Below, in pieces: positions 15,749 to 26,982 of a stretch of DNA of 29,123 bases. Below the pieces are notes generated by a model. The model worked only from the letters and a program-made list of their open reading frames with translations. It had not been told where the DNA came from and did no database searches. Each line of letters begins with the position of its first letter. Positions within the stretch are counted from its first letter, which is position 1. The position numbers and the translations under genes are program-made. The stretch is from a virus. The stretch spans positions 1,708 to 30,830 of IMG/VR virus record IMGVR_UViG_3300001450_000148; one strand, written 5' to 3'.

Positions 15749-17638
15749 ATGCCGCTGTCAAAAGTAGAGTTTCAGCCGGGTATCAACAAAGAAGAGACTG
15801 ATTACTCCGCATCTGGGGGGTGGGTTGACGGTAACCTTATACGCTTCAGAAAGTCGAGAGCCGAGAAAATTGGCGGATGGGTTACGCTCGGCCAGAATAC
15901 TTTTCTGGGAATTGCGCGAGCTCTACACAGTTGGATAACCTTGGGCGGTACAAGGCTTTTAGGCACAGGCACAACTTTTAAGTATTACATCGAAAGCGGT
16001 GACATATATTATGACGTCACGCCAATTCGGTCTACCACCAGCGCTGGTGACGTTACATTTAGCGCCACAAACGGATCAACCACCTTAGCCGTAAATGACG
16101 TTAGCCATGGTGCTGTTACTGGGGATTTTGTTACTTTCGACGGCGCCGCGACTCTAGGCGGAGCAATCACTGCGGCTGTTTTAAATCAAGAGTATCAAAT
16201 ACTATTAGTCACTGGGGCGAACACTTACACAATTACTACTAAAGACACTAGCGGAAATGTTGTACAGGCGACCAGTGGTGATAGCGGTAACAGTGGGGGA
16301 AGCACCAGAGGCACTTATCAAATTAGTGTTGGGCTAGACAATTTTGTATCTGGCACTGGCTGGGGAGTAAACGCTTGGGGATCTGGCGCGTTTGGTTCAT
16401 CTTCCTCAATAGGATTCCTGAATCAGTTGCGTCTTTGGACGCACGACAATTACGGTGAGAACTTAATAATTAACCCTAGAGGCGGCTCCATTTACCGATG
16501 GGTCGAGAATAACGGGTTAGGCACTCGGGCGTTAGATTTGGCTACTGCCACTGGCGCCAACTTAGTTCCTACGGCGGCACTTCAGGTTATTACTTCCGAA
16601 ACCGACAGGCACTTGATAGTGCTTGGCGCCGATCCGATATCAGGCGGATCTAGGACTGGCACTCTTGACCCAATGTTGGTTGCGTTCTCTGACAGCGAAA
16701 ACGAATTAGAATTTGAGCCGCTTGCAACAAACAGCGCAGGTAGCGTCAGACTTTCCTCTGGATCACTAATCGTTGGTGGATTAAAATCACAGCAAGAAGT
16801 ATTGATCTGGACAGACACCGCTTTGTACAGTATGGCCTTTATTGGCCCACCGCTAACTTTTGCCATCAATTTAATTAATGAGGGCGCTGGTTTAATTGGC
16901 CCCAAGGCGGCAGTGGCCTCTTCGGCAGGCGTTTTCTTTGCAAGTAAGGCTGGGTTCTATCTTTATTCGGGAACTGTTACAAAGCTTCCTTGCTCTGTTC
17001 AGGAATACGTTTTCGAGGACATAGATCTAAGCCAAGCATTTAAATGTCATATGGGACTGAACAGTGAGTTTGGTGAGATGTGGTTCTTCTATCCGTCACT
17101 CACTGACGGCACCGAAGAGATATCTCGCTACGTTATTTTTAACTATGAAGAAAATACTTGGTCTATTGGATCTCTGATCAGGTACTCTTGGATAGATTCT
17201 GGCGTAGAGAATAACCCCATTGCTTCGGGCATAGAAGCTGGAAGCTATGTAAACTATTTGCAAGAAAGTGGATACGACGACAACGAATCCGCTATGGATG
17301 GCGTGTTTATTGAGTCAGCGGACATTGCCATTGGCGATGGCGATCAATTTGCTTTTGTTAAAAAAATTATTCCAGACTTGGCGTTTTTTACTCAAACGGG
17401 TGTAGGGACTACGCCCGCTATGAATCTTGTGTTAAAGCGCCGAGACTACAACAATGAAACTTTAACCACAGATTCAACGACTCAGGTTACTCAAAGCTCA
17501 AAGTTTAGTAACGTGAGAAGCAGGGCTAGGCAGATTGTCTTGCGGTTTGAGAGTGACGACGACGCCACACAACAGTTGGGCTACAAATGGCGGCTGGGAT
17601 CTACAAGGATTGACATTCAGCCTAGCGGAAGACGCTAA
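15749..17638 (+). CDS. Tail nozzle / DNA-stabilising tail hub protein
   Basis: A 629-residue protein beginning PLSKVEFQPGINKEETDYSA, GGWVDGNLIRFRKSRAEKIG, the hallmark of the family that forms the nozzle of SU10/T7-like tails (T7 gp12, P22 gp10 equivalents). A beta-propeller-like body follows with repeated strands (LRLWTHDNYGENLIINPRGG, ESEVLIWTDTALYSM-type phrases near residues 230-370). An inserted Ig-like or Thr/Ser-rich part lies near residues 95-190. The nozzle closes the portal-adaptor channel and retains DNA. It starts 7 nt after the previous stop and overlaps the next gene by one base. Confidence 0.8.
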   Translation: MPLSKVEFQPGINKEETDYSASGGWVDGNLIRFRKSRAEKIGGWVTLGQNTFLGIARALHSWITLGGTRLLGTGTTFKYYIESGDIYYDVTPIRSTTSAGDVTFSATNGSTTLAVNDVSHGAVTGDFVTFDGAATLGGAITAAVLNQEYQILLVTGANTYTITTKDTSGNVVQATSGDSGNSGGSTRGTYQISVGLDNFVSGTGWGVNAWGSGAFGSSSSIGFLNQLRLWTHDNYGENLIINPRGGSIYRWVENNGLGTRALDLATATGANLVPTAALQVITSETDRHLIVLGADPISGGSRTGTLDPMLVAFSDSENELEFEPLATNSAGSVRLSSGSLIVGGLKSQQEVLIWTDTALYSMAFIGPPLTFAINLINEGAGLIGPKAAVASSAGVFFASKAGFYLYSGTVTKLPCSVQEYVFEDIDLSQAFKCHMGLNSEFGEMWFFYPSLTDGTEEISRYVIFNYEENTWSIGSLIRYSWIDSGVENNPIASGIEAGSYVNYLQESGYDDNESAMDGVFIESADIAIGDGDQFAFVKKIIPDLAFFTQTGVGTTPAMNLVLKRRDYNNETLTTDSTTQVTQSSKFSNVRSRARQIVLRFESDDDATQQLGYKWRLGSTRIDIQPSGRR

Positions 17639-17952: not shown

Positions 17953-19974
17953 ATGAATACAGAATTAGAAGATACGTTGATGGGAATAGTTACTGCGCAA
18001 TCAATGTCGTATGGCGGCAGTGTACAGCCTCGCAAAATGGCTGATGGGGGAAATGTTCCCAGCCAGAATCAAATGGATATGATGATGCAGGCGGAGCAAG
18101 CTGTTGCTGAAGCGCCAGCAGATCCGAATGTCGCAATCGCTCAAGCAATTGAAGAGCTAATGATGCAGTCGGGCATGACCGATGACCCCACAGAAAAGGC
18201 AAAGCTTGAGCATTTAGCCGAGGCCGCAATGGTTGGCTCTCAAGCTCCGATGGCTGAGCAAGCAATTCTTCTGGCGCAACAGGGGCGCGGTGACGACTCT
18301 GCGCTGGCGCATTTACGGCCCGGCGAAGTCGTACTACCACCAGAAGCTTTTGAAGACGAAGCCTTTGAGATGGCTGTGCAGAATAGATTTGCCGAGCTCG
18401 ACATAGATCCAATGCAAGCGGTTGTAGGTGTGGGCATTGCCTCCCTGAACCCAATTACTGGTTTGGAAGAGTTTGGATTTTTTAAGAAAATTGCAAAGGG
18501 CGTAAAAAAAGTAGTTAAGAAAGTAGTCAAACCCCTAGCCCAAGTTGCGCAGTTTATACCCGGCCCTTGGCAACCTATCGCCGCATTGGCGAACAAAGCG
18601 TTTACTGTTTACGACGTCGCGAAAGGCGGCAATCCTCTGGCTTTATTAACTGTAGCTGGGCCGCTTGCTACTGGCGGAAGTTTGACTGATAACATTTCTA
18701 ACATCTCCAAGGCAGGCAGTGGAAGTTTTATGTCTGGCCTAGGCAAGTCAATAACTGGATCATACGGTGAGCTTACATCTGGTATTGGCGGCTTGATGGC
18801 AGATCCTCTCGGAACTTTTACTGGCTCTGCGACTGGCGGAGGAATACCGGGCTTGCTACGAACCGCAACATACTCTGGTCAACCAATGCCAGCAGGCACT
18901 GTTGTTGGGGCTGGATCTACTGTCGCCAGTCCGGGAAGCTTATATGGCTCTCCACAAGGCGGATTTCAAAAAGTTGGTATGCAGTTGGCTGGCATGGGTG
19001 GCGGCGGTGGCGGTATGTCATTAAGCCAGCTATATCCCGGCGGTGGTATGCAAAGCGGCCAGACCCCAGAGGATTATGCGGCGGGGGTTTACCAAAGTTT
19101 AATGGATCAAGGGATGTCTCAAGACGATGCGGGGATTATGGCAGAGCAGGCGTATCAAGATGCCATGAATCAAAGTTACGCCGCAAGCCAAGGTTCAGGT
19201 GGGCTATCTTCTTTAAATCGAGCACTCAACCCATTCATTAGTGGTGGCGCCATAGACAACGCTTTCGACACGCCCCAGTGGATGAAAGACCTTGGCAAGA
19301 GCTTTGGCCTTGGTAGTAAAAATCCAACGCCTGACATGATTAAAGGCTTAACCAACCCCAACGTGCAAGGCGGATTTGCGGGCGGTTTAGGTGGCTTGCT
19401 TGGCGGTGGGGGTGGAATGGGCGGTCTAGGTCAATTGGCTACCGCAGGAATACCCGCTTACTTGCTGGGTAAGATGGCTTACGACGAAGCGAAGAAAGAT
19501 CGCGGGGTTGCGTTAACGCCTCTGACTACAATGAATGCCGCAGGCAGATACAACATTGAGGCCGAGATCGCTAGAAGAATGGGCGATAAAGCGCCGAACC
19601 CGACTGAATTTGGATTGTTGCCGAGCAACACGTTGCCGCAACTTGCGGGCGGCGCCCCTCAAAGCATGGCATACGGCGGGCCAGTAATGGCTTATGCAGA
19701 TGGCGGAAACGTCAGTATGCAAGAGTTTCAGAGAATGGTTGGCGATATTGAAGGCGAAGGCACAGAGATATCTGACGACATCCCAGCCATGCTTAGCGAT
19801 GGCGAGTTCGTGATGAACGGACAAGCGGTGCGTGGCGCTGGAGCGTTTACCATGAAGAAAGATGGCGGCATCATTACCTTAGAGGCTAACGGCAAGGAGT
19901 CGCGAGACAAGGGCACCGACCTTATGTATCAGATGATGGAGCTCTTTAAAGAGTTTGCAGGAGAGCCAGCATGA
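17953..19974 (+). CDS. Putative ejection protein with cationic amphipathic helix
   Basis: A 673-residue Gly/Met/Ala-rich protein. Near the N-terminus lie YGGSV (20-24), ADGGNV (30-35) and a helical Met/Gln/Glu-rich part (36-110) ending in LRPGEVVLP (121-129). At 175-195 comes FFKKIAKGVKKVVKKVVKPL, a strongly cationic amphipathic helix followed by a hydrophobic stretch, as in membrane-acting peptides. A long Gly-rich region (about 215-520) follows. The C-terminus repeats the opening motifs: YGGPV, ADGGNV (582-587), LSDGEFVM (614-621). It overlaps the giant repeat-protein gene by 4 nt. Packaging in the head and membrane insertion during DNA ejection are inferred. Confidence 0.7.
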   Translation: MNTELEDTLMGIVTAQSMSYGGSVQPRKMADGGNVPSQNQMDMMMQAEQAVAEAPADPNVAIAQAIEELMMQSGMTDDPTEKAKLEHLAEAAMVGSQAPMAEQAILLAQQGRGDDSALAHLRPGEVVLPPEAFEDEAFEMAVQNRFAELDIDPMQAVVGVGIASLNPITGLEEFGFFKKIAKGVKKVVKKVVKPLAQVAQFIPGPWQPIAALANKAFTVYDVAKGGNPLALLTVAGPLATGGSLTDNISNISKAGSGSFMSGLGKSITGSYGELTSGIGGLMADPLGTFTGSATGGGIPGLLRTATYSGQPMPAGTVVGAGSTVASPGSLYGSPQGGFQKVGMQLAGMGGGGGGMSLSQLYPGGGMQSGQTPEDYAAGVYQSLMDQGMSQDDAGIMAEQAYQDAMNQSYAASQGSGGLSSLNRALNPFISGGAIDNAFDTPQWMKDLGKSFGLGSKNPTPDMIKGLTNPNVQGGFAGGLGGLLGGGGGMGGLGQLATAGIPAYLLGKMAYDEAKKDRGVALTPLTTMNAAGRYNIEAEIARRMGDKAPNPTEFGLLPSNTLPQLAGGAPQSMAYGGPVMAYADGGNVSMQEFQRMVGDIEGEGTEISDDIPAMLSDGEFVMNGQAVRGAGAFTMKKDGGIITLEANGKESRDKGTDLMYQMMELFKEFAGEPA

Positions 19975-22900
19975 GTGTATTTTTTAGTACGGAAGCGGGC
20001 AACGCTACAGGAAGCGGTGACGTTGATGAGTTTGCTTTTGCATATAAGAATAAATTTGGGTCAGAGCCTGACGCCTCCATAATTCAACAGTTTCAAGCCG
20101 CGATGGCAGAATCAGGCAAGGCTCTCGACGACTACGGTTTTGAGGGCGACCTTAATTCTCGCCTGTCTCAAAAGAACGCCCTTCGGGATCAGTTGATGCA
20201 AAGTCAGCTTGACCAATACGGTTTAGAGAAAGACTCACCCATGATGGGCCCGAGTAATTTTCCTCAGACTCCAGATGTGATGGTTGGGGGGCCCGCCGCT
20301 CAAACAAATGAACAAATAACGCAGAGCCCTGAGTATCAGGACGCGCTACAAAGATTTCAGGATTCTCAAGGGCAAGATGCAGGGGCCAAAGCAACCCTTG
20401 ATGGCTTTCAGTCGCAGATGTCCGCTAATGCGGGAGATCAAGCGACTACATCAACGGGGCCAGCGCCAAGCGACAATCCATATGTCAGCGGCGTTACCTC
20501 CACGCAGACAACCATGGATCCGGTTACTCAGCAGTTGCTTTACGGTTTAGATGGGCAAGGCGGTTTTATACCCGGCGCGATGCGAGCCGCAAACCGCACG
20601 TTTTTTGATGCCGAAGGCAAGCCAATTGTAATACCGCAAGAAATTGCTGGCTTTAATCAAGACCAATTGGCGGCCATGAATTTGGCTAGAAGCAACACTG
20701 GCTCTCAACTTCCATTCCTTCAGCAGTCGGAAGCGGAAATGCGTGCTGGCCTTGGCGCACTTGATCGTGGTCAAGCTCAACAGTTGGGATCTCAGGGTCA
20801 GTCTTTGCGCTCTTTACAGAGCGGCGCTGGTCAATCTGACTTTCAATCTCGTCTTGGTCTTGGAGACGCTTTGCGTGGAAACAGGTTAAACGAATCTATT
20901 TCTAGGGGAGCCACTTCAAGCTTTGGGAGAAATTTAGGCGGATTAGATTCGCTCTCTCGCGGCGCTGTGGATCAGTTTGGAAATATGATCGGCGGAGCCA
21001 CAGGAAACTTACAGCGCGGTGTTTCAGATTTAGGCTTTGGGCTGGATCGATCTTTAGGTGCCGAGGCAGGATCATTCAACAACTTGAGGTCTGGATTGTC
21101 TGGCGCTTCTGATACTTTAGGTCGTGCGGGAACTTCTCTGGGCCAAGGATTGTCTCAAGCAACAGGTGCCATGGGATCTGCGGCGAGTGATTTGCGCAGT
21201 GGTCAGTTGGGTGCGTCAAACACATTGCGCCAAGCAGGGGACGTTTTAGGCGGCGGTTTATCAAGAGCGGAAAGCGCTCTTGGCTCTGCTGGCGGGCGTC
21301 TTGGAAGTGGGCTTTCTGCGGCAACGGGTGCATTGAGCAATGCCGAGCAAAGATTAGGCAACGAGCTTACTGCCGCGATTGGCGCAGAGCGTGGCGCTGT
21401 GGATCGATTTGGTCGAGAGTCGGCGCTTGCTACTGGCAGTCTTGCTGGTTCTGTGGATCGTTTTGGCAATAGACTTGATGACGTTGAGCGTTTGGGGATT
21501 GGCGCTCTCAGCGACTTTACTGACGACTTGGATGAGTCACAGCAACTATTGCGTGGGACAACCAACCAGTCGTTTGATCCCTCGTCGGTAAGCAATTTTT
21601 ATAATCCATACGAAGATGCGGTGGTGGTTCAACAGACAATCGACGATGCCACCAAAAACCTCTCTCAAGCCGATATGCAGGAGTTTGCCAGCAACATAGC
21701 TAGGGGCGGAGAGTCGGCCTTTGGTTCTCGCGCTCGGCTGGGAGCCTCAGAACGAGCAGAAGCCGTTGGTCGGGGTTTAGCAAAAGAAGTTGGCGGCATT
21801 CGTGCGGCTGGATTCCAGAATGCACAAACCGCCGCAATGAATGAGTTTCAGCGACAGCAAGATGCCCAAAGGCAAGGCGCTTCAGGATTGGCGTCACTGA
21901 GCAGTCAAGGTCTTGGCGCCTCGGAAAGATTTGCTGGGGCTCTCGGTTCTGGCGCCGGTCAACGCCTTGGTGCAGAGCAAAGCTTGTCTGGACAGTTGTC
22001 GTCAGACGCGGCACAGCGCTTGCAGGCAGAGCGAAGCATTGCAGATAGATTGTCAGCCGCAGGAAGCCAGCGCTTCGGCGCAGGGCAGTCTTTGGCGTCA
22101 ATGATGGGTAATCAGGCGTCTCAAGAGTTTGGCGCCGATCAGGCATTGGCTGGCATGATAGGCAGTAATGCGGCACAAAGATATGGGGCAGATCAAGGGC
22201 TATCGAGCCTAATGAACAGCCAAGCAAATGCCGCTTTGGCCGCAGATCAAGCAACCGCAAATATGAGAGCCAATCAAGCAACCCAGCAGTTTGGTGCAGA
22301 TCAATCTCTAGCCAATATGCTTGGCAATCAAGCGTCTCAGCTTGGGTCGGCAGGTCAATCTCTTGCTCGCAGAATCGGTGATGTTTCGCAGACAAACTTT
22401 GGTGCCAACCAAGCTCTAACAGGTCAGCAAATGGCTCAAGCTCAAGGTATGTTGGGCGCCAATCAAAACATGAACACGCAGTTGCGCAACAGCGCATCTC
22501 AAAACCTTGCGGCTCAGCAACAGTTAGGCAACACGATGGCTAACATGGGTCAGGCGTCAAGCAACGCAAGAAATATGTATGGTCAAAATACCATGGCTAA
22601 CGCGCAAGCAGTCTCGCAGGGTCAGGCTCAGCTAGGCAATGTGCAGAATCAAATTGGTCAACAGCAACTGCAAGCCCAGCAGGGATATGGAAACTTTCTC
22701 CAAGGTTTGGGTGGGCAGATCTCTAACGCCAATAGCCAAGATATGAACACGCTGATGAACATGGGCAATATGCAACAGGGTCTGTCACAACAGCAACTAG
22801 ATGCTCAAAGAGCGTCATTGTTGCAAGCCCAGCAGGCGCCGTTGGCTCAGTACCAATCCTTGATGCCATTTATGCAAATGGGCGTTGGTGCAGGCGGATC

Positions 22901-23045
22901 CTCTCAGATCAATACAAACTACGCCCCCACGCCAAGCGCATTGCAGGCTGGTTTAGCAACAGGTCTGGGAACCTTGGGCGCCGTTGGAAACTTTGTTGGG
23001 CAGACAAGCGGAAATAATCAGCCGTCACAATACTATTACCAGTAG
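19971..23045 (+). CDS. Giant internal virion protein with two 18-residue repeat arrays
   Basis: A 1024-residue Ala/Gly/Gln/Ser/Asn-rich protein, almost wholly helical in appearance. Order: N-terminal globular part (1-250); array A, twelve units of exactly 18 residues (306-521); a conserved linker with NPYEDAVVVQQTIDDATKNL and ESAFGSRARLGASERAEAVG (about 541-600), a pattern I recall from ejection proteins of marine phages; array B, twelve more 18-residue units (649-864); then a Gln/Asn/Met-rich tail with weaker continuation of the period. AGGAG precedes the ATG. An 18-residue period is five helix turns, suiting long straight helical bundles. A role as a DNA-ejection conduit is inference. Confidence 0.78.
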   Translation: MSVFFSTEAGNATGSGDVDEFAFAYKNKFGSEPDASIIQQFQAAMAESGKALDDYGFEGDLNSRLSQKNALRDQLMQSQLDQYGLEKDSPMMGPSNFPQTPDVMVGGPAAQTNEQITQSPEYQDALQRFQDSQGQDAGAKATLDGFQSQMSANAGDQATTSTGPAPSDNPYVSGVTSTQTTMDPVTQQLLYGLDGQGGFIPGAMRAANRTFFDAEGKPIVIPQEIAGFNQDQLAAMNLARSNTGSQLPFLQQSEAEMRAGLGALDRGQAQQLGSQGQSLRSLQSGAGQSDFQSRLGLGDALRGNRLNESISRGATSSFGRNLGGLDSLSRGAVDQFGNMIGGATGNLQRGVSDLGFGLDRSLGAEAGSFNNLRSGLSGASDTLGRAGTSLGQGLSQATGAMGSAASDLRSGQLGASNTLRQAGDVLGGGLSRAESALGSAGGRLGSGLSAATGALSNAEQRLGNELTAAIGAERGAVDRFGRESALATGSLAGSVDRFGNRLDDVERLGIGALSDFTDDLDESQQLLRGTTNQSFDPSSVSNFYNPYEDAVVVQQTIDDATKNLSQADMQEFASNIARGGESAFGSRARLGASERAEAVGRGLAKEVGGIRAAGFQNAQTAAMNEFQRQQDAQRQGASGLASLSSQGLGASERFAGALGSGAGQRLGAEQSLSGQLSSDAAQRLQAERSIADRLSAAGSQRFGAGQSLASMMGNQASQEFGADQALAGMIGSNAAQRYGADQGLSSLMNSQANAALAADQATANMRANQATQQFGADQSLANMLGNQASQLGSAGQSLARRIGDVSQTNFGANQALTGQQMAQAQGMLGANQNMNTQLRNSASQNLAAQQQLGNTMANMGQASSNARNMYGQNTMANAQAVSQGQAQLGNVQNQIGQQQLQAQQGYGNFLQGLGGQISNANSQDMNTLMNMGNMQQGLSQQQLDAQRASLLQAQQAPLAQYQSLMPFMQMGVGAGGSSQINTNYAPTPSALQAGLATGLGTLGAVGNFVGQTSGNNQPSQYYYQ
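20886..21533 (+). repeat. Array A: twelve 54-nt (18-codon) units
   Basis: Residues 306-521 divide without gaps into twelve 18-residue units, for example GATGNLQRGVSDLGFGLD, GASDTLGRAGTSLGQGLS, GASNTLRQAGDVLGGGLS and RAESALGSAGGRLGSGLS. Small or hydrophobic residues tend to fall at positions 2, 6, 9, 13 and 17. The DNA copies are diverged, so the array is old and kept at protein level. Confidence 0.85.
21915..22562 (+). repeat. Array B: twelve 54-nt (18-codon) units
   Basis: Residues 649-864 divide into twelve 18-residue units such as GAEQSLSGQLSSDAAQRL, GAGQSLASMMGNQASQEF, GADQALAGMIGSNAAQRY and GADQSLANMLGNQASQLG. Conserved positions are G/A1, A2, Q4, L6, L/M9-10, Q or A at 13-14, and often F or L at 18. 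Three or four weaker units may follow. No gaps are needed across 216 residues. Confidence 0.9.
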
Positions 23046-23053
23046 GTTAAAAT

Positions 23054-23800
23054 ATGGCAACGCCAAATCCAACAACTAGTTATTTTGATCAACTGACTGC
23101 GTTACAGAGAGATCAGGCTCCCCCAACGTATGCTGACATTAGTGAGCGTGCGAGAGAGCTTTCGATGCTTATGCCACAGCAACGCAAAGCCAACATCTAT
23201 GATCTTGCTACATCTTTGTCGCAGGGCTTAACTCAGCAGGCGGCAAGTGGGCGACCATCGTCTGTGGGCTATGGTTTGGCGGCAGGGTTTAATCTGTTTT
23301 CCGAAGCGGCACAAAAACGCCGAGCGGTTGCGGATGAAATGCAATCTAAGTTAATGCAGATGGCTTACTCTGATCTTGAGAAGAAAAAAGCCGACAGCCA
23401 GTTAATGCAAGAAAAGATGTTGGATTCTAATTTTAAATATGAACTAGAAATGCTCAAGCAGAACAATGGTTACTTTCAAGGCAAAAGCGTTGAGTCTGCC
23501 GCATTAAATATGATTATTGAGGGAGAAAAAAACCCAGAGCTTAAAAAAACAACAGAATACAAAATTGCTTTGGCATTAATCACTAAGCCGAGGCCGTCTA
23601 CCATTCAGACAGAAAGGGGAACCGAAAGCATTATGTTACCCGGCTTAAATCTGGATGACGTATTAAACAATTCTTCTTCGGCCCCTGCGGCTACCGTAAA
23701 TGCGCCAGCAGGATCTACTTTTACGGGACAATACAAAGACGGAAAGCCCATATTTAAAGACAACGACCCTAACGCTACAACAATATATTTTACGGAGTAA
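23054..23800 (+). CDS. Putative internal virion protein
   Basis: A 248-residue helical protein. Residues 20-140 are rich in Gln, Ala, Leu and Lys (ARELSMLMPQQRKANIYDLA, then SDLEKKKADSQLMQEKMLDS), suggesting a coiled coil, with a Gly/Ala-rich break GRPSSVGYGLAAGFNLFSEA at about 67-86. The C-terminal 60 residues are low-complexity and polar, ending in a YKDGKPIFKDNDPN turn. No family is recognised with certainty. Position between the giant repeat protein and two other putative ejection proteins supports a packaged internal protein. Confidence 0.65.
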   Translation: MATPNPTTSYFDQLTALQRDQAPPTYADISERARELSMLMPQQRKANIYDLATSLSQGLTQQAASGRPSSVGYGLAAGFNLFSEAAQKRRAVADEMQSKLMQMAYSDLEKKKADSQLMQEKMLDSNFKYELEMLKQNNGYFQGKSVESAALNMIIEGEKNPELKKTTEYKIALALITKPRPSTIQTERGTESIMLPGLNLDDVLNNSSSAPAATVNAPAGSTFTGQYKDGKPIFKDNDPNATTIYFTE

Positions 23801-23806
23801 TCGGGA

Positions 23807-24451
23807 ATGCCAAGAGAAGCTATAAGTATGGAAGAGTTTACGAATATTTCTTCTCGCCCAGCGTCTACCCCTTCACAAAAGATTGAAAGTTTTGGTGTAA
23901 TCGAAGGGACAGAAAAGAAAAAAGATCCTTTTGGTGAAGGCCAAAAAGAGGCGGCAACTTTTGCTGTAAGAATGAAAGAAGCAAATAAAAACATACAGCA
24001 ACTAATTGACTCTGGTTTTAACCCAATTAATTTTAAGGATGCTGTTTTAATAGACAAATCCCCCTTTATTCCAGATCTTGCAGAAAATTATTTGAAGTCT
24101 GGAAAAAGACAAGTTTTTGAAAATGCGGCTATGGATTTTGCTATGGCGGTTCTACGAAAAGAGTCGGGCGCCGCGATAACACCAACAGAGCAAGAAATGA
24201 TTCAAGTACAGTATATTCCACAACCGTTCGACAAAGCCGAAGTTTTAGCTCAAAAATCAAAAGCCAGAAAAATAGCAGTTTCTGGAATGATTTCTCAAGC
24301 GGGAAAAGCTTTTGATCAAGTAGAAGAAGGCATTGCAAAAGGCGAAACTGCTGGTCAAGCGCCAATTGAGGCTCTGGAAATTTTAAAGAAAAGAGCGCAA
24401 AATGACCCAGATTTAGCAAAAAAATTGCGGGATAGGGGTCTTATTAGATGA
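23807..24451 (+). CDS. Conserved ejection-module protein (LRKESGAAI family)
   Basis: A 214-residue helical protein. AMDFAMAVLRKESGAAITPT (residues about 107-126), with QYIPQPFDKAEVLAQKSKAR shortly after, matches a block I recall from many phage internal or tail-module proteins (pattern F-x-A-x-LR-x-ESGA-x-I, then a YxPxPxD turn). In others the block may be a domain of a larger protein. GGAG precedes the ATG, and its stop overlaps the next start (ATGA). No biochemical role is known to me. Confidence 0.7.
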   Translation: MPREAISMEEFTNISSRPASTPSQKIESFGVIEGTEKKKDPFGEGQKEAATFAVRMKEANKNIQQLIDSGFNPINFKDAVLIDKSPFIPDLAENYLKSGKRQVFENAAMDFAMAVLRKESGAAITPTEQEMIQVQYIPQPFDKAEVLAQKSKARKIAVSGMISQAGKAFDQVEEGIAKGETAGQAPIEALEILKKRAQNDPDLAKKLRDRGLIR

Positions 24452-26982
24452 GCGAAACTTCACTTGGTACTTTAAACGACGATCAGTTATTAAGTATGGT
24501 TGTTGATAGCGCCCCAAATCCAGACGTCCCCTCATACGACGACAATTTTTTAATGAATTTGGCGCAAGAAGATTTAAACAAATCTATTGATACAAAGTCG
24601 GGCGCCCCCGCAGGCATAAGAGCGCAGGTTGCCGCCGCCCAAAATACCGACGACAAGTTGGCTACAATTAAAAAGTTTTATCCAGACGCTATTCCTGTGG
24701 AAGTTTTTGACCCAGAAAGTGGAGCGGCTAATTTTGGGCGCGGAAATTTTATAATAACAAATCCAGAGACTGGCAAATTAAGTTTGTTTGATGAAGACAT
24801 ACGCCTGTTTGGTATACCAATCCCAACGCTTGGCGACTTTGCTGACGCAGGGCCAGAAATTGCAGAAATGACTGGCGCAATCGTTGGCGGAACCTTAGCC
24901 GCTGGTGCGGCGGCTACAGCAACTGCGCCCACAGTTATTGGAACGGTTCCTGCGGCAACTGCGGCATTTATTGCTGGCGAAGGTGTCGGAAGCGCGGCGG
25001 CAAGAGAAGCATATATTGGAATCTTAGATTACTTTGGGGAAACCGAAGATAATCGCGGGGCTGGGGACAGGCTTTCTGACTTTGCAACTACAGCAACTAT
25101 TAATGCGGCGGCTGGGCCAATTGCATCAAAGGTATTTCAGGGAGTAAAAGTTGTTGCTGGTGCTCCAGTAAGATTTGCCACGCGCACAATGTCGGCGCCC
25201 GCAAAAGAAGCTTTGACTAGAATGCAAAGTGCTGGAGTAACCAACCCAACAGCGGGTCAAATTACTGGTAGCCCCTTAGCGAATCTTTTTGAGCAATATT
25301 TATCTGCGGCTCCCCCATCTGTTGCGACAATGAAGCAAAACGCCGAACAGACTTTAGTTCAAATACAAGATTCTGCGGCAAAGCTTGCTCAACAATATGG
25401 CGGCGCAAGAACAACTTCGGATGCGGCATATAAAACAATGGACGCCGCACAAGCGGCAAGATCGCGTTACGACGAAAAAGTAAACGCAATGTATAACGAG
25501 GTTGGCGAATTAATTGGTGACGTTACTTCAAGCGGATCTGCAACAAAAACTTTTGTTGATAAATATATTGCTACAAGTAAAACAGCCACTGGGTCGGCAG
25601 ACGTTGACCCAGCATTGGAGCTTGCGGCAAAGGTTTTGCGTGACGCAGGAGAAGGGCTGTTAGATTACAATCAGCTTAAAAATTTCCGAAGTAGTTTAAT
25701 GGCTACAGTTAGAAAGTCAGAGTCCCAAGGGGCTTTAAATGCCTCGGACAGAAAAGTAAAAGAGTTGATCGGATATGTTTCTAGCGACTTAGATAATCTG
25801 GTTAAAAACGCATCCAGATCGCAGATGGATCTTTTGGGCGGTCAAGCTGGGCAGAAAAACGCCAAAGATGTATTGAAACTTTACAAAGAAGCCAACTCTT
25901 TTGTTGCTGACAATATGCGTAAGGGCGGTGACATTGCTTTTATTGACAAGGTTATTAAGTCTGGGGAGCAGGAGGCGACTGGAGCATTGCGGCTGGTTCT
26001 GGGCGGCAATAAAGAGGGCGCAGAGCGCCTAGAAAAAATGCGTCGGCAATTTACCTCGGAAGAATTTAATGTCTTGTCTGGTTATATGCTCGGAAGGATG
26101 GGGCTTCCAAATGCTGGGGCCGCTGGCGCCTCGGAGATGGGGGAGCAAGCCTTTAAAGAGGGCGCCGAGACAATATTAGACGCTGGATTTTCTCCTAACA
26201 CATTTATTCGCAATTGGAATAACACTTCAAAAGAAGCAAGGGAAGCGTTATTTGGCGGCACAGAATACGAGAAATTAGCTCCCGCGCTTGACGATTTGGT
26301 TTTTACAATAGATCGAGTTGGCAAGTCAGCGAGCGACATGGCAAACCCGTCTGGAACCGCAAGGTTGTTAGGTGCCATGGGAACTTTTGGCCCGTTAGCT
26401 GGAGAGGCAGGTAGGCTTATCGGAGGCGAGGGGTTTGAGTACGGTTTGAGCGGACTTATTGCTCCGTATGCCTCTGCAAAATTAATGACAAATCCAAATT
26501 TTGTTAAGTGGCTTACAGAGGGTGTGGAGAAGGCGGCATATAATCCGCAGTCTTTTGGTCAACACATCCGCAGACTTGCCCAGATATCTGAGTTAAACCC
26601 AGACATTCGAGACGAGGTTCGCGCAGTTGTTCAGGGGCTAACGCAAGAGTCTATTGAACCAATTGAATGGCAAGATACCGAAACTTTAAAAGGGTCAGTT
26701 ACTGAGGGAATTCCAGATAACAACGAGGTATCTTTTCGGCAAGCGGTTCCAAGCTCTGTAGCAGACAAGCTGTTGCCAACCAGAGAAGAGTTAATGTCTC
26801 AGATGTCGTCAATAGATGTTCCAGATGTTGGTGCTCCAATGTTTGAGCCCCTTCCGTCTATGGGATCTGGGTCTTTTTCAGGGCAGTCGAGTATGTCCCC
26901 AACGATCCTGCCTAATGACGCGGATAGAGAGTTGGCGGCTAGGCTCCAACAGCCAAGCGCTGGGATAGCTGGTTTAATCTAA
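24448..26982 (+). CDS. Large putative DNA-ejection protein with hydrophobic segments
   Basis: An 844-residue protein. Residues 45-120 hold a conserved opening (APAGIRAQVAAAQNTDDKLA, a YPDAIPVEVFD strand, ITNPETGKLSLFDEDIRLFG). Residues 137-188 are an Ala/Gly/Thr-rich hydrophobic stretch (AEMTGAIVGGTLAAGAAATA and on to FIAGEGVGSAAAREAYIG) that could enter membranes. Both parts recall large internal virion proteins of marine podoviruses. A long helical body follows (240-720), and the C-terminus is polar and Pro/Ser-rich. Last gene of the rightward tail module; it overlaps the convergent small gene by 9 nt. Transport of DNA across the envelope is inferred. Confidence 0.72.
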   Translation: MSETSLGTLNDDQLLSMVVDSAPNPDVPSYDDNFLMNLAQEDLNKSIDTKSGAPAGIRAQVAAAQNTDDKLATIKKFYPDAIPVEVFDPESGAANFGRGNFIITNPETGKLSLFDEDIRLFGIPIPTLGDFADAGPEIAEMTGAIVGGTLAAGAAATATAPTVIGTVPAATAAFIAGEGVGSAAAREAYIGILDYFGETEDNRGAGDRLSDFATTATINAAAGPIASKVFQGVKVVAGAPVRFATRTMSAPAKEALTRMQSAGVTNPTAGQITGSPLANLFEQYLSAAPPSVATMKQNAEQTLVQIQDSAAKLAQQYGGARTTSDAAYKTMDAAQAARSRYDEKVNAMYNEVGELIGDVTSSGSATKTFVDKYIATSKTATGSADVDPALELAAKVLRDAGEGLLDYNQLKNFRSSLMATVRKSESQGALNASDRKVKELIGYVSSDLDNLVKNASRSQMDLLGGQAGQKNAKDVLKLYKEANSFVADNMRKGGDIAFIDKVIKSGEQEATGALRLVLGGNKEGAERLEKMRRQFTSEEFNVLSGYMLGRMGLPNAGAAGASEMGEQAFKEGAETILDAGFSPNTFIRNWNNTSKEAREALFGGTEYEKLAPALDDLVFTIDRVGKSASDMANPSGTARLLGAMGTFGPLAGEAGRLIGGEGFEYGLSGLIAPYASAKLMTNPNFVKWLTEGVEKAAYNPQSFGQHIRRLAQISELNPDIRDEVRAVVQGLTQESIEPIEWQDTETLKGSVTEGIPDNNEVSFRQAVPSSVADKLLPTREELMSQMSSIDVPDVGAPMFEPLPSMGSGSFSGQSSMSPTILPNDADRELAARLQQPSAGIAGLI

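Follow-up and report, generated by a model that had tools for sequence, protein, structure and literature searches.

The window, i.e., the whole stretch of DNA analysed (29,123 nucleotides, positions 1,708 to 30,830 of the IMG/VR virus record IMGVR_UViG_3300001450_000148), came from a 31.5 kb virus record that carried a terminase, an SU10-type portal and a phrog_3287 structural protein. The following features were located in the window:

15749..17638, + strand: 629-aa virion structural protein (phrog_3287), called 'stabilization' or 'constituent' protein in relatives
17953..19974, + strand: 673-aa neighbour with a C-terminal motif common to tape-measure proteins (phrog_17300 and others, E 8.8e-06, residues 578-633)
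19971..23045, + strand: gene of the putative hairpin ejection protein (1024 aa), whose start overlaps the stop of the preceding gene
20517..20720, + strand: N-terminal base region (residues 183-250), the DPxTxxLLxG...AGFNQDQLAAMNLAR block, conserved in relatives and used as N anchor
20646..21596, + strand: N-arm (residues 226-542), its length measured from AGF to NPY
20886..21533, + strand: array A, twelve 18-residue units (residues 306-521, gap-free split)
21534..21914, + strand: conserved linker (residues 522-648), the putative hairpin tip
21597..21623, + strand: FYNPYEDAV motif (residues 543-551), nearly invariant
21705..21731, + strand: GGESAFGSR glycine turn (residues 579-587), the putative fold-back point, placed from the registry of indels, the midpoint of the arrays and a loop in the AF2 model of relative L022
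21732..22835, + strand: C-arm (residues 588-955), its length measured in relatives; helical in AF2
21915..22562, + strand: array B, twelve 18-residue units (residues 649-864), facing array A
22836..23042, + strand: C-terminal base region (residues 956-1024), beginning with APLAQYQ and used as C anchor
23054..26982, + strand: three further orfs (248, 214 and 844 aa), in a position that holds the rest of the ejection cassette in relatives

The nearest named relatives of the window's genes were found in Pelagibacter phages HTVC023P and HTVC027P, phage 023Pt_psg01, phage DSL-LC04 and Roseobacter phages CRP-901/902, a set that included podoviral pelagiphages. In the named genomes, the site after the phrog_3287 gene was occupied by a short protein with AGF..., NPY...GGxR and a C-terminal motif. 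The 673-aa neighbour is probably another protein of the ejection cassette, and the 844-aa orf matched phrog_36512. The end of the 673-aa orf displayed a SDDIPAMLSDGEFV...GAGAF motif, common to proteins annotated as tape measures and to the equivalent gene of many relatives. A DSL-LC04 protein annotated as tail tape measure protein (WJZ48115, L012:16132-18411) carried tandem units of ~17 residues (GPSYAGMDLSSAQGTLG type).

Two gap-free arrays of twelve 18-residue units each had been reported in a preliminary description of this DNA, and both split without any insertion, as listed above. Mean BLOSUM62 self-similarity at a lag of 18 residues exceeded that of 1000 shuffles by 10.3 SD in array A and by 13.6 SD in array B, the peak at 18 residues thus being present over shuffled controls in both arrays (z = 10 and 14). 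Other peaks were found at lags 36 and 54, and lag 7 was not raised. Register scores dropped steeply beyond both arrays, which makes twelve units each a fair count; the paired shaft exceeded the arrays and covered approximately residues 226-955, the AGF motif lying at residue 226. Units of array A did not score on the profile of array B, nor the reverse, so the two sets are distinct rather than copies of the same unit. Tandem Repeats Finder detected no DNA-level array at the repeats, and these are therefore old at the DNA level.

Hydrophobicity in array A displayed its maximum power at 18/5 = 3.6 residues (226 against a shuffled mean of 8; 0 of 1000 shuffles reached it). In array B the top peak was at 18/4 (167) and the 18/5 peak came second (61), far above shuffles. 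The clean 18/5 helical pattern put forward in the preliminary description was thus recovered by Fourier test for array A, whereas array B was mixed, with 18/4 strongest. AF2 monomer models of L022 and of the window protein both had helical arms, in agreement with the helical arms described earlier but at low confidence (mean pLDDT 51 and 56, pTM 0.25 and 0.24), so that hairpin packing was not directly visible in the models. Helices of the window protein covered residues 247-300, 334-410 and 415-502 of the N-arm (pLDDT about 74-82 at 370-450) and residues 592-644, 666-800 and 816-962 of the C-arm. The L022 model placed a loop at residues 235-242, the position of the Gly turn.

The Gly content of array A (20%) is unusual in long helices and counts against a helical hairpin. 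Gly-rich units and low AF2 confidence would also suit a beta-solenoid or a disordered spacer, a reading made very improbable by the 3.6-residue periodicity, by the helices in both AF2 models and by the steps in arm length among relatives (18, 11 and 4 residues, see below), each of which preserves helical register; the beta-solenoid was rejected on these three grounds. Foldseek searches with the low-confidence models gave no usable PDB match and only poor TM-scores in BFVD. Claudin-4, the sole sequence match to a solved structure (E = 0.09), was not credible.

The window protein (P0001) alone matched no PHROG, Pfam or NCBIfam family and fell below the phrog_4287 threshold. Searches of a phage collection returned no match for the whole protein (tblastn), weak kuravirus matches only for the AGF block (E about 4-10) and none for the linker, and the protein was therefore assigned to its family by profiles. 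Of 26 relatives of the window protein, six matched phrog_4287, 'DNA ejection protein', directly at E <= 0.01 (best 1.2e-11), as did the short named proteins, which had no match in Pfam. In hhalign, the profile of the relatives aligned with that of the short named ejection proteins at 99.3% (E = 2.6e-20), the alignment running from one terminal base to the other with surplus residues sitting in both arms; the profile of P0001's own clade aligned with the named proteins over the C-terminal 105 columns only. The gene order was that of the phrog_4287 family, the gene lying in a late cassette after that of the phrog_3287-type structural protein.

The short phrog_4287 relatives (HTVC023P gp81, HTVC027P gp83, DSL-LC04 WJZ48114, MinM2 WEV89210 and Bas87_0017/_0018) shared with the window protein the order of blocks (AGF, NPY/GGSR tip, C anchor), the cassette position and arms balanced about the tip. 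They differed in size, with 254-350 aa and short arms compared to 1024 aa, the extra length of the window protein being composed of the two repeat arrays and N-terminal sequence. In Bas87, a kuravirus-like coliphage, two adjacent phrog_4287 genes followed the transglycosylase gene, i.e., the place of gp21/gp22, and Bas87_0017/_0018 are by this analogy likely counterparts of SU10 gp21/gp22, with the numbering taken from gene order. SU10 gp20-24 are present in virions and gone after genome release, and the SU10 ejection proteins are not resolved in the virion map (PMC9509320). Homology to phrog_4287 and the SU10 data together support the ejection role proposed earlier, and the window protein is probably pushed into the host by this marine virus. 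A scan of genome contigs for bacterial carriers confirmed none.

A relative 71% identical to the window protein carried nine units per array compared to twelve, and arm lengths were therefore surveyed across relatives. The linker or other short segments of the protein served to retrieve contigs, arm length never being a criterion, and relatives were sampled from IMG/VR (80 kept of the 421-541 confirmed per scan). Three small HMMs placed the N anchor, the tip and the C anchor, the N-arm being taken from the AGF motif to NPY. Among 140 distinct sequences, the N-arm ranged from 40 to 552 residues and the C-arm equalled the N-arm plus a constant (r = 0.9998, slope 1.003), with the balance kept within ±3 residues in 139 of them. 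The number of units, equal on both sides in the preliminary description, was accordingly not fixed at twelve when homologues were compared, but its equality was kept. Arms of the main family measured 73 + 18n residues, with 11 or 15 added in some, to within one residue, and this odd residue fell in the linker; the lengths correspond to steps of 18 plus rare 11 and 4. A control stretch before the N anchor varied from 35 to 866 residues and was uncoupled (r = -0.26).

Changes in the two arms coincided on a tree built from non-arm columns, where parsimony counted 46 N-arm changes, 44 C-arm changes and one imbalance larger than 3 residues; a smaller tree with a mixture model gave 20, 20 and 2, respectively. 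These counts are approximate, as some branches were weakly supported. The rule was looser in 46 distant superfamily members (r = 0.977, slope 1.05), a set that includes the contig-end artefact L183, whose arm length was read from a cut contig end. L183, L212 and L219 were apparent outliers in this set, the last two having an N-arm insert of 60-70 residues that immediately precedes NPY and has no counterpart in the C-arm. Three other distant members (L177, L186, L229) possessed long arms of 424-459 residues with other repeat sequences, apparently independent expansions. An N-terminal extension ahead of the hairpin, with its own repeats (FDPSxLxxQIxxxxxxIPxFD type), was observed in L040 (4102 onward), and extensions of this kind varied freely in length. 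An otherwise 99% identical copy showed a frameshift near the C-terminus (L002:8763-8900), probably an assembly error.

The single exception among the 140 sequences, L100, had one extra C-arm unit (a duplicated DLLGRTGQQQLAAQQ) without N-arm partner. Its arms measured 163/273 residues, compared to 163/255 in L101, which had neither extra unit, and 181/273 in L095, which had both; either an intermediate in evolution or a mixed assembly could explain L100. The rule was also broken by CRP-902 gp34, from a Roseobacter phage (L013:18329-19771), as six 18-residue units (QARFGAEDVMRGQFMEDR type) were found in its C-arm only and its N-arm was built of 12-residue units, leaving the arms unequal.

Blocks gained or lost by the N-arm and by the C-arm lay level with each other. 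This was seen in 21 close pairs that differed in arm length: with the missing block placed by single-gap alignment of each arm separately, gap positions expressed as distance from the tip were correlated between N-arm and C-arm (r = 0.998, offset 19.5 residues, MAD 1.0). This was equalled by 0 of 20,000 draws under either of two nulls (P < 5e-5), the 21 pairs being not all independent and many of the blocks lying close to the tip. Several deep blocks fell on the same line (81/62, 106/85, 152/129, 174/156 and 212/192). The offset of 19.5 residues puts the axis of symmetry some 36 residues beyond NPY, within the GGESAFGSR turn (approximately residues 582-585 of the window protein, the midpoint between the arrays being residue 585), and gains and losses at matched levels thus point to a fold-back at this conserved Gly turn.

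Unit-similarity matrices of the N-arm and C-arm of the window protein correlated best at the mirror register (r = 0.55, P = 0.001), and the same optimum was found in L262 (r = 0.42, P = 0.0005), which had the longest arms found (552/644 residues). The mirror-register test gave no significant signal in some shorter members. Units 9-10 of L262 recurred as units 15-16 in the N-arm and the C-arm alike, a pattern resembling a same-level duplication of a six-unit block in each arm. The two-arm architecture suggested at first was supported family-wide, and more strongly than the preliminary description could foresee, by equal arms, steps of 18 residues and arrays facing each other about a Gly turn inside the linker.

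Equal arms could in principle be a mutational by-product, arrays expanding by slippage or recombination and matching by chance or shared ancestry. Tandem 18-residue units duplicate easily and the duplication in one arm of L100 shows such an event, but the 46 length changes on the tree left one imbalance, levels were matched, A and B units had no sequence likeness, and other variable stretches were uncoupled. The tree and level data refute this explanation unless the sampling is non-independent, and we regard it as extremely improbable.

The mirrored gains and losses imply two stretches lying side by side, antiparallel and level-matched, and we strongly infer that the arms are helical and pair in this way. 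One alpha-helical hairpin per chain, with conserved tip and base, is the simplest reading, because it accounts for the mirrored indels, the helical periodicity, the helical AF2 arms and the steps that keep register. The window protein is thus very probably a DNA-ejection protein of a short-tailed phage that forms a long antiparallel alpha-helical hairpin, intramolecular or domain-swapped. In the proposed fold, the N-arm would extend from a conserved base (AGF block), the chain would reverse at the GGESAFGSR glycine turn in the tip, and the C-arm would lead back to another conserved segment of the base (APLAQYQ block). With five turns and a length of about 27 A, each 18-residue unit would adjoin the unit at the same level of the other arm, so that a change in one arm would need a match in the other and the arrays would stay equal.

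All length and level data would fit equally well an oligomer in which the arms span the same distance between two fixed rings, each N-arm lying beside a neighbour's C-arm (a domain-swapped or alternating barrel). Ejection tunnels are oligomeric rings, a nonamer for DEV gp72:gp73 (PMC10925440). The tight conserved Gly turn at the symmetry axis and the AF2 loop favour a fold-back within one chain, and the oligomeric arrangement appears unlikely.

Several copies of the hairpin may exit the head and pack laterally into a rod or an alpha-helical tube, which would carry DNA across the envelope, arm length setting its reach. A conduit made of several hairpins is plausible by analogy with T7, DEV and N4. 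If straight, the shaft would measure ~54 nm in the window protein and up to ~88 nm in L262. Straight arms of 350-550 residues would measure 50-80 nm, longer than the periplasm and exceeding a podovirus head at the top end; the shaft may therefore bend, bundle or refold after ejection. More broadly, and tentatively, these proteins could possibly make up a very widespread ejection family, with a helical hairpin, freely adjustable in length (about 11 to 88 nm when straight) but strictly balanced, serving as an extendable conduit shaft, whose length evolves through mirrored duplications in the two arms and is tuned to the host envelope or injection geometry.

A role as ruler, the other function raised in the preliminary description, found no support, since the lengths of neighbouring proteins did not scale with arm length. 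A tape-measure-like protein, its arm length set by and setting the length of another virion or envelope structure, would agree with the quantised length (40 to 552 residues), with the 11- and 11-11-18-residue units of tape measure proteins (PMC3271669) and with several top BFVD fold matches to such proteins, at TM-scores that were meaninglessly low. The length of the upstream orf showed no relation to arm length (r = 0.04, n = 55) and the 620-629-aa structural protein kept its length, and no structure that the arms would measure was found; such a ruler seems unlikely.

Tape measure proteins resemble the window protein as long, unit-built, helical virion proteins used at DNA entry (PMC3271669), while they have W/F every 11 residues and no mirrored second arm has been described in them; the homologies of the window phage are to short-tailed phages. 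Membership among them was rejected on the strict 18-residue units without Trp marker, on the SU10-type portal and podoviral relatives, and since no tape measure profile matched the orf. SMC/Rad50 proteins offer a similar architecture, one chain folded at a hinge whose N- and C-terminal halves pair into a long antiparallel arm that is restricted in length (PMC5344682, PMC5526789), and the window family likewise had equal N and C halves about a central turn with gains and losses at matched levels. The length preference of SMC/Rad50 is about 100 residues with 7-residue coils, compared to 18 (11, 4) in the window family, and membership was rejected as neither ATPase head or halves nor a hinge was found and Pfam and NCBIfam gave no match. 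DEV gp72:gp73, N4 gp51/gp52 and T7 gp15 are helical ejection proteins forming a trans-envelope tube, for which the available excerpts of the sources (PMC10925440, PMC12633501, PMC8954989) describe no unit-built, length-variable hairpin; no sequence match to solved chains was obtained. Within the limited range of literature searched, no phage ejection protein was described as a length-balanced, unit-built hairpin.

Few structures of ejection proteins exist, and in this family the fold is supplied by evolution. Matched-level indels serve a protein hairpin as compensatory base changes serve an RNA stem, settling topology, register and turn before any structure is solved. Because the rule extends, in looser form, over a large superfamily of environmental phages, a single structure would account for many proteins that lack annotation. 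Unit deletions, in either arm alone or in the two together, make the need for balance separable from the need for length and protein length a testable, adjustable part of a DNA-injection machine; the matched-arm design would permit a test of whether short-tailed phages determine how far their injection tube reaches.

Two minor features were observed within the gene. At 21597-21623 the window read EDAVVVQQT where all close relatives had EDAVVQQT, a one-residue insertion seen in the window only. A 265-aa open frame on the minus strand (21700-22497), opposite array B, is probably a by-product of repeat composition.
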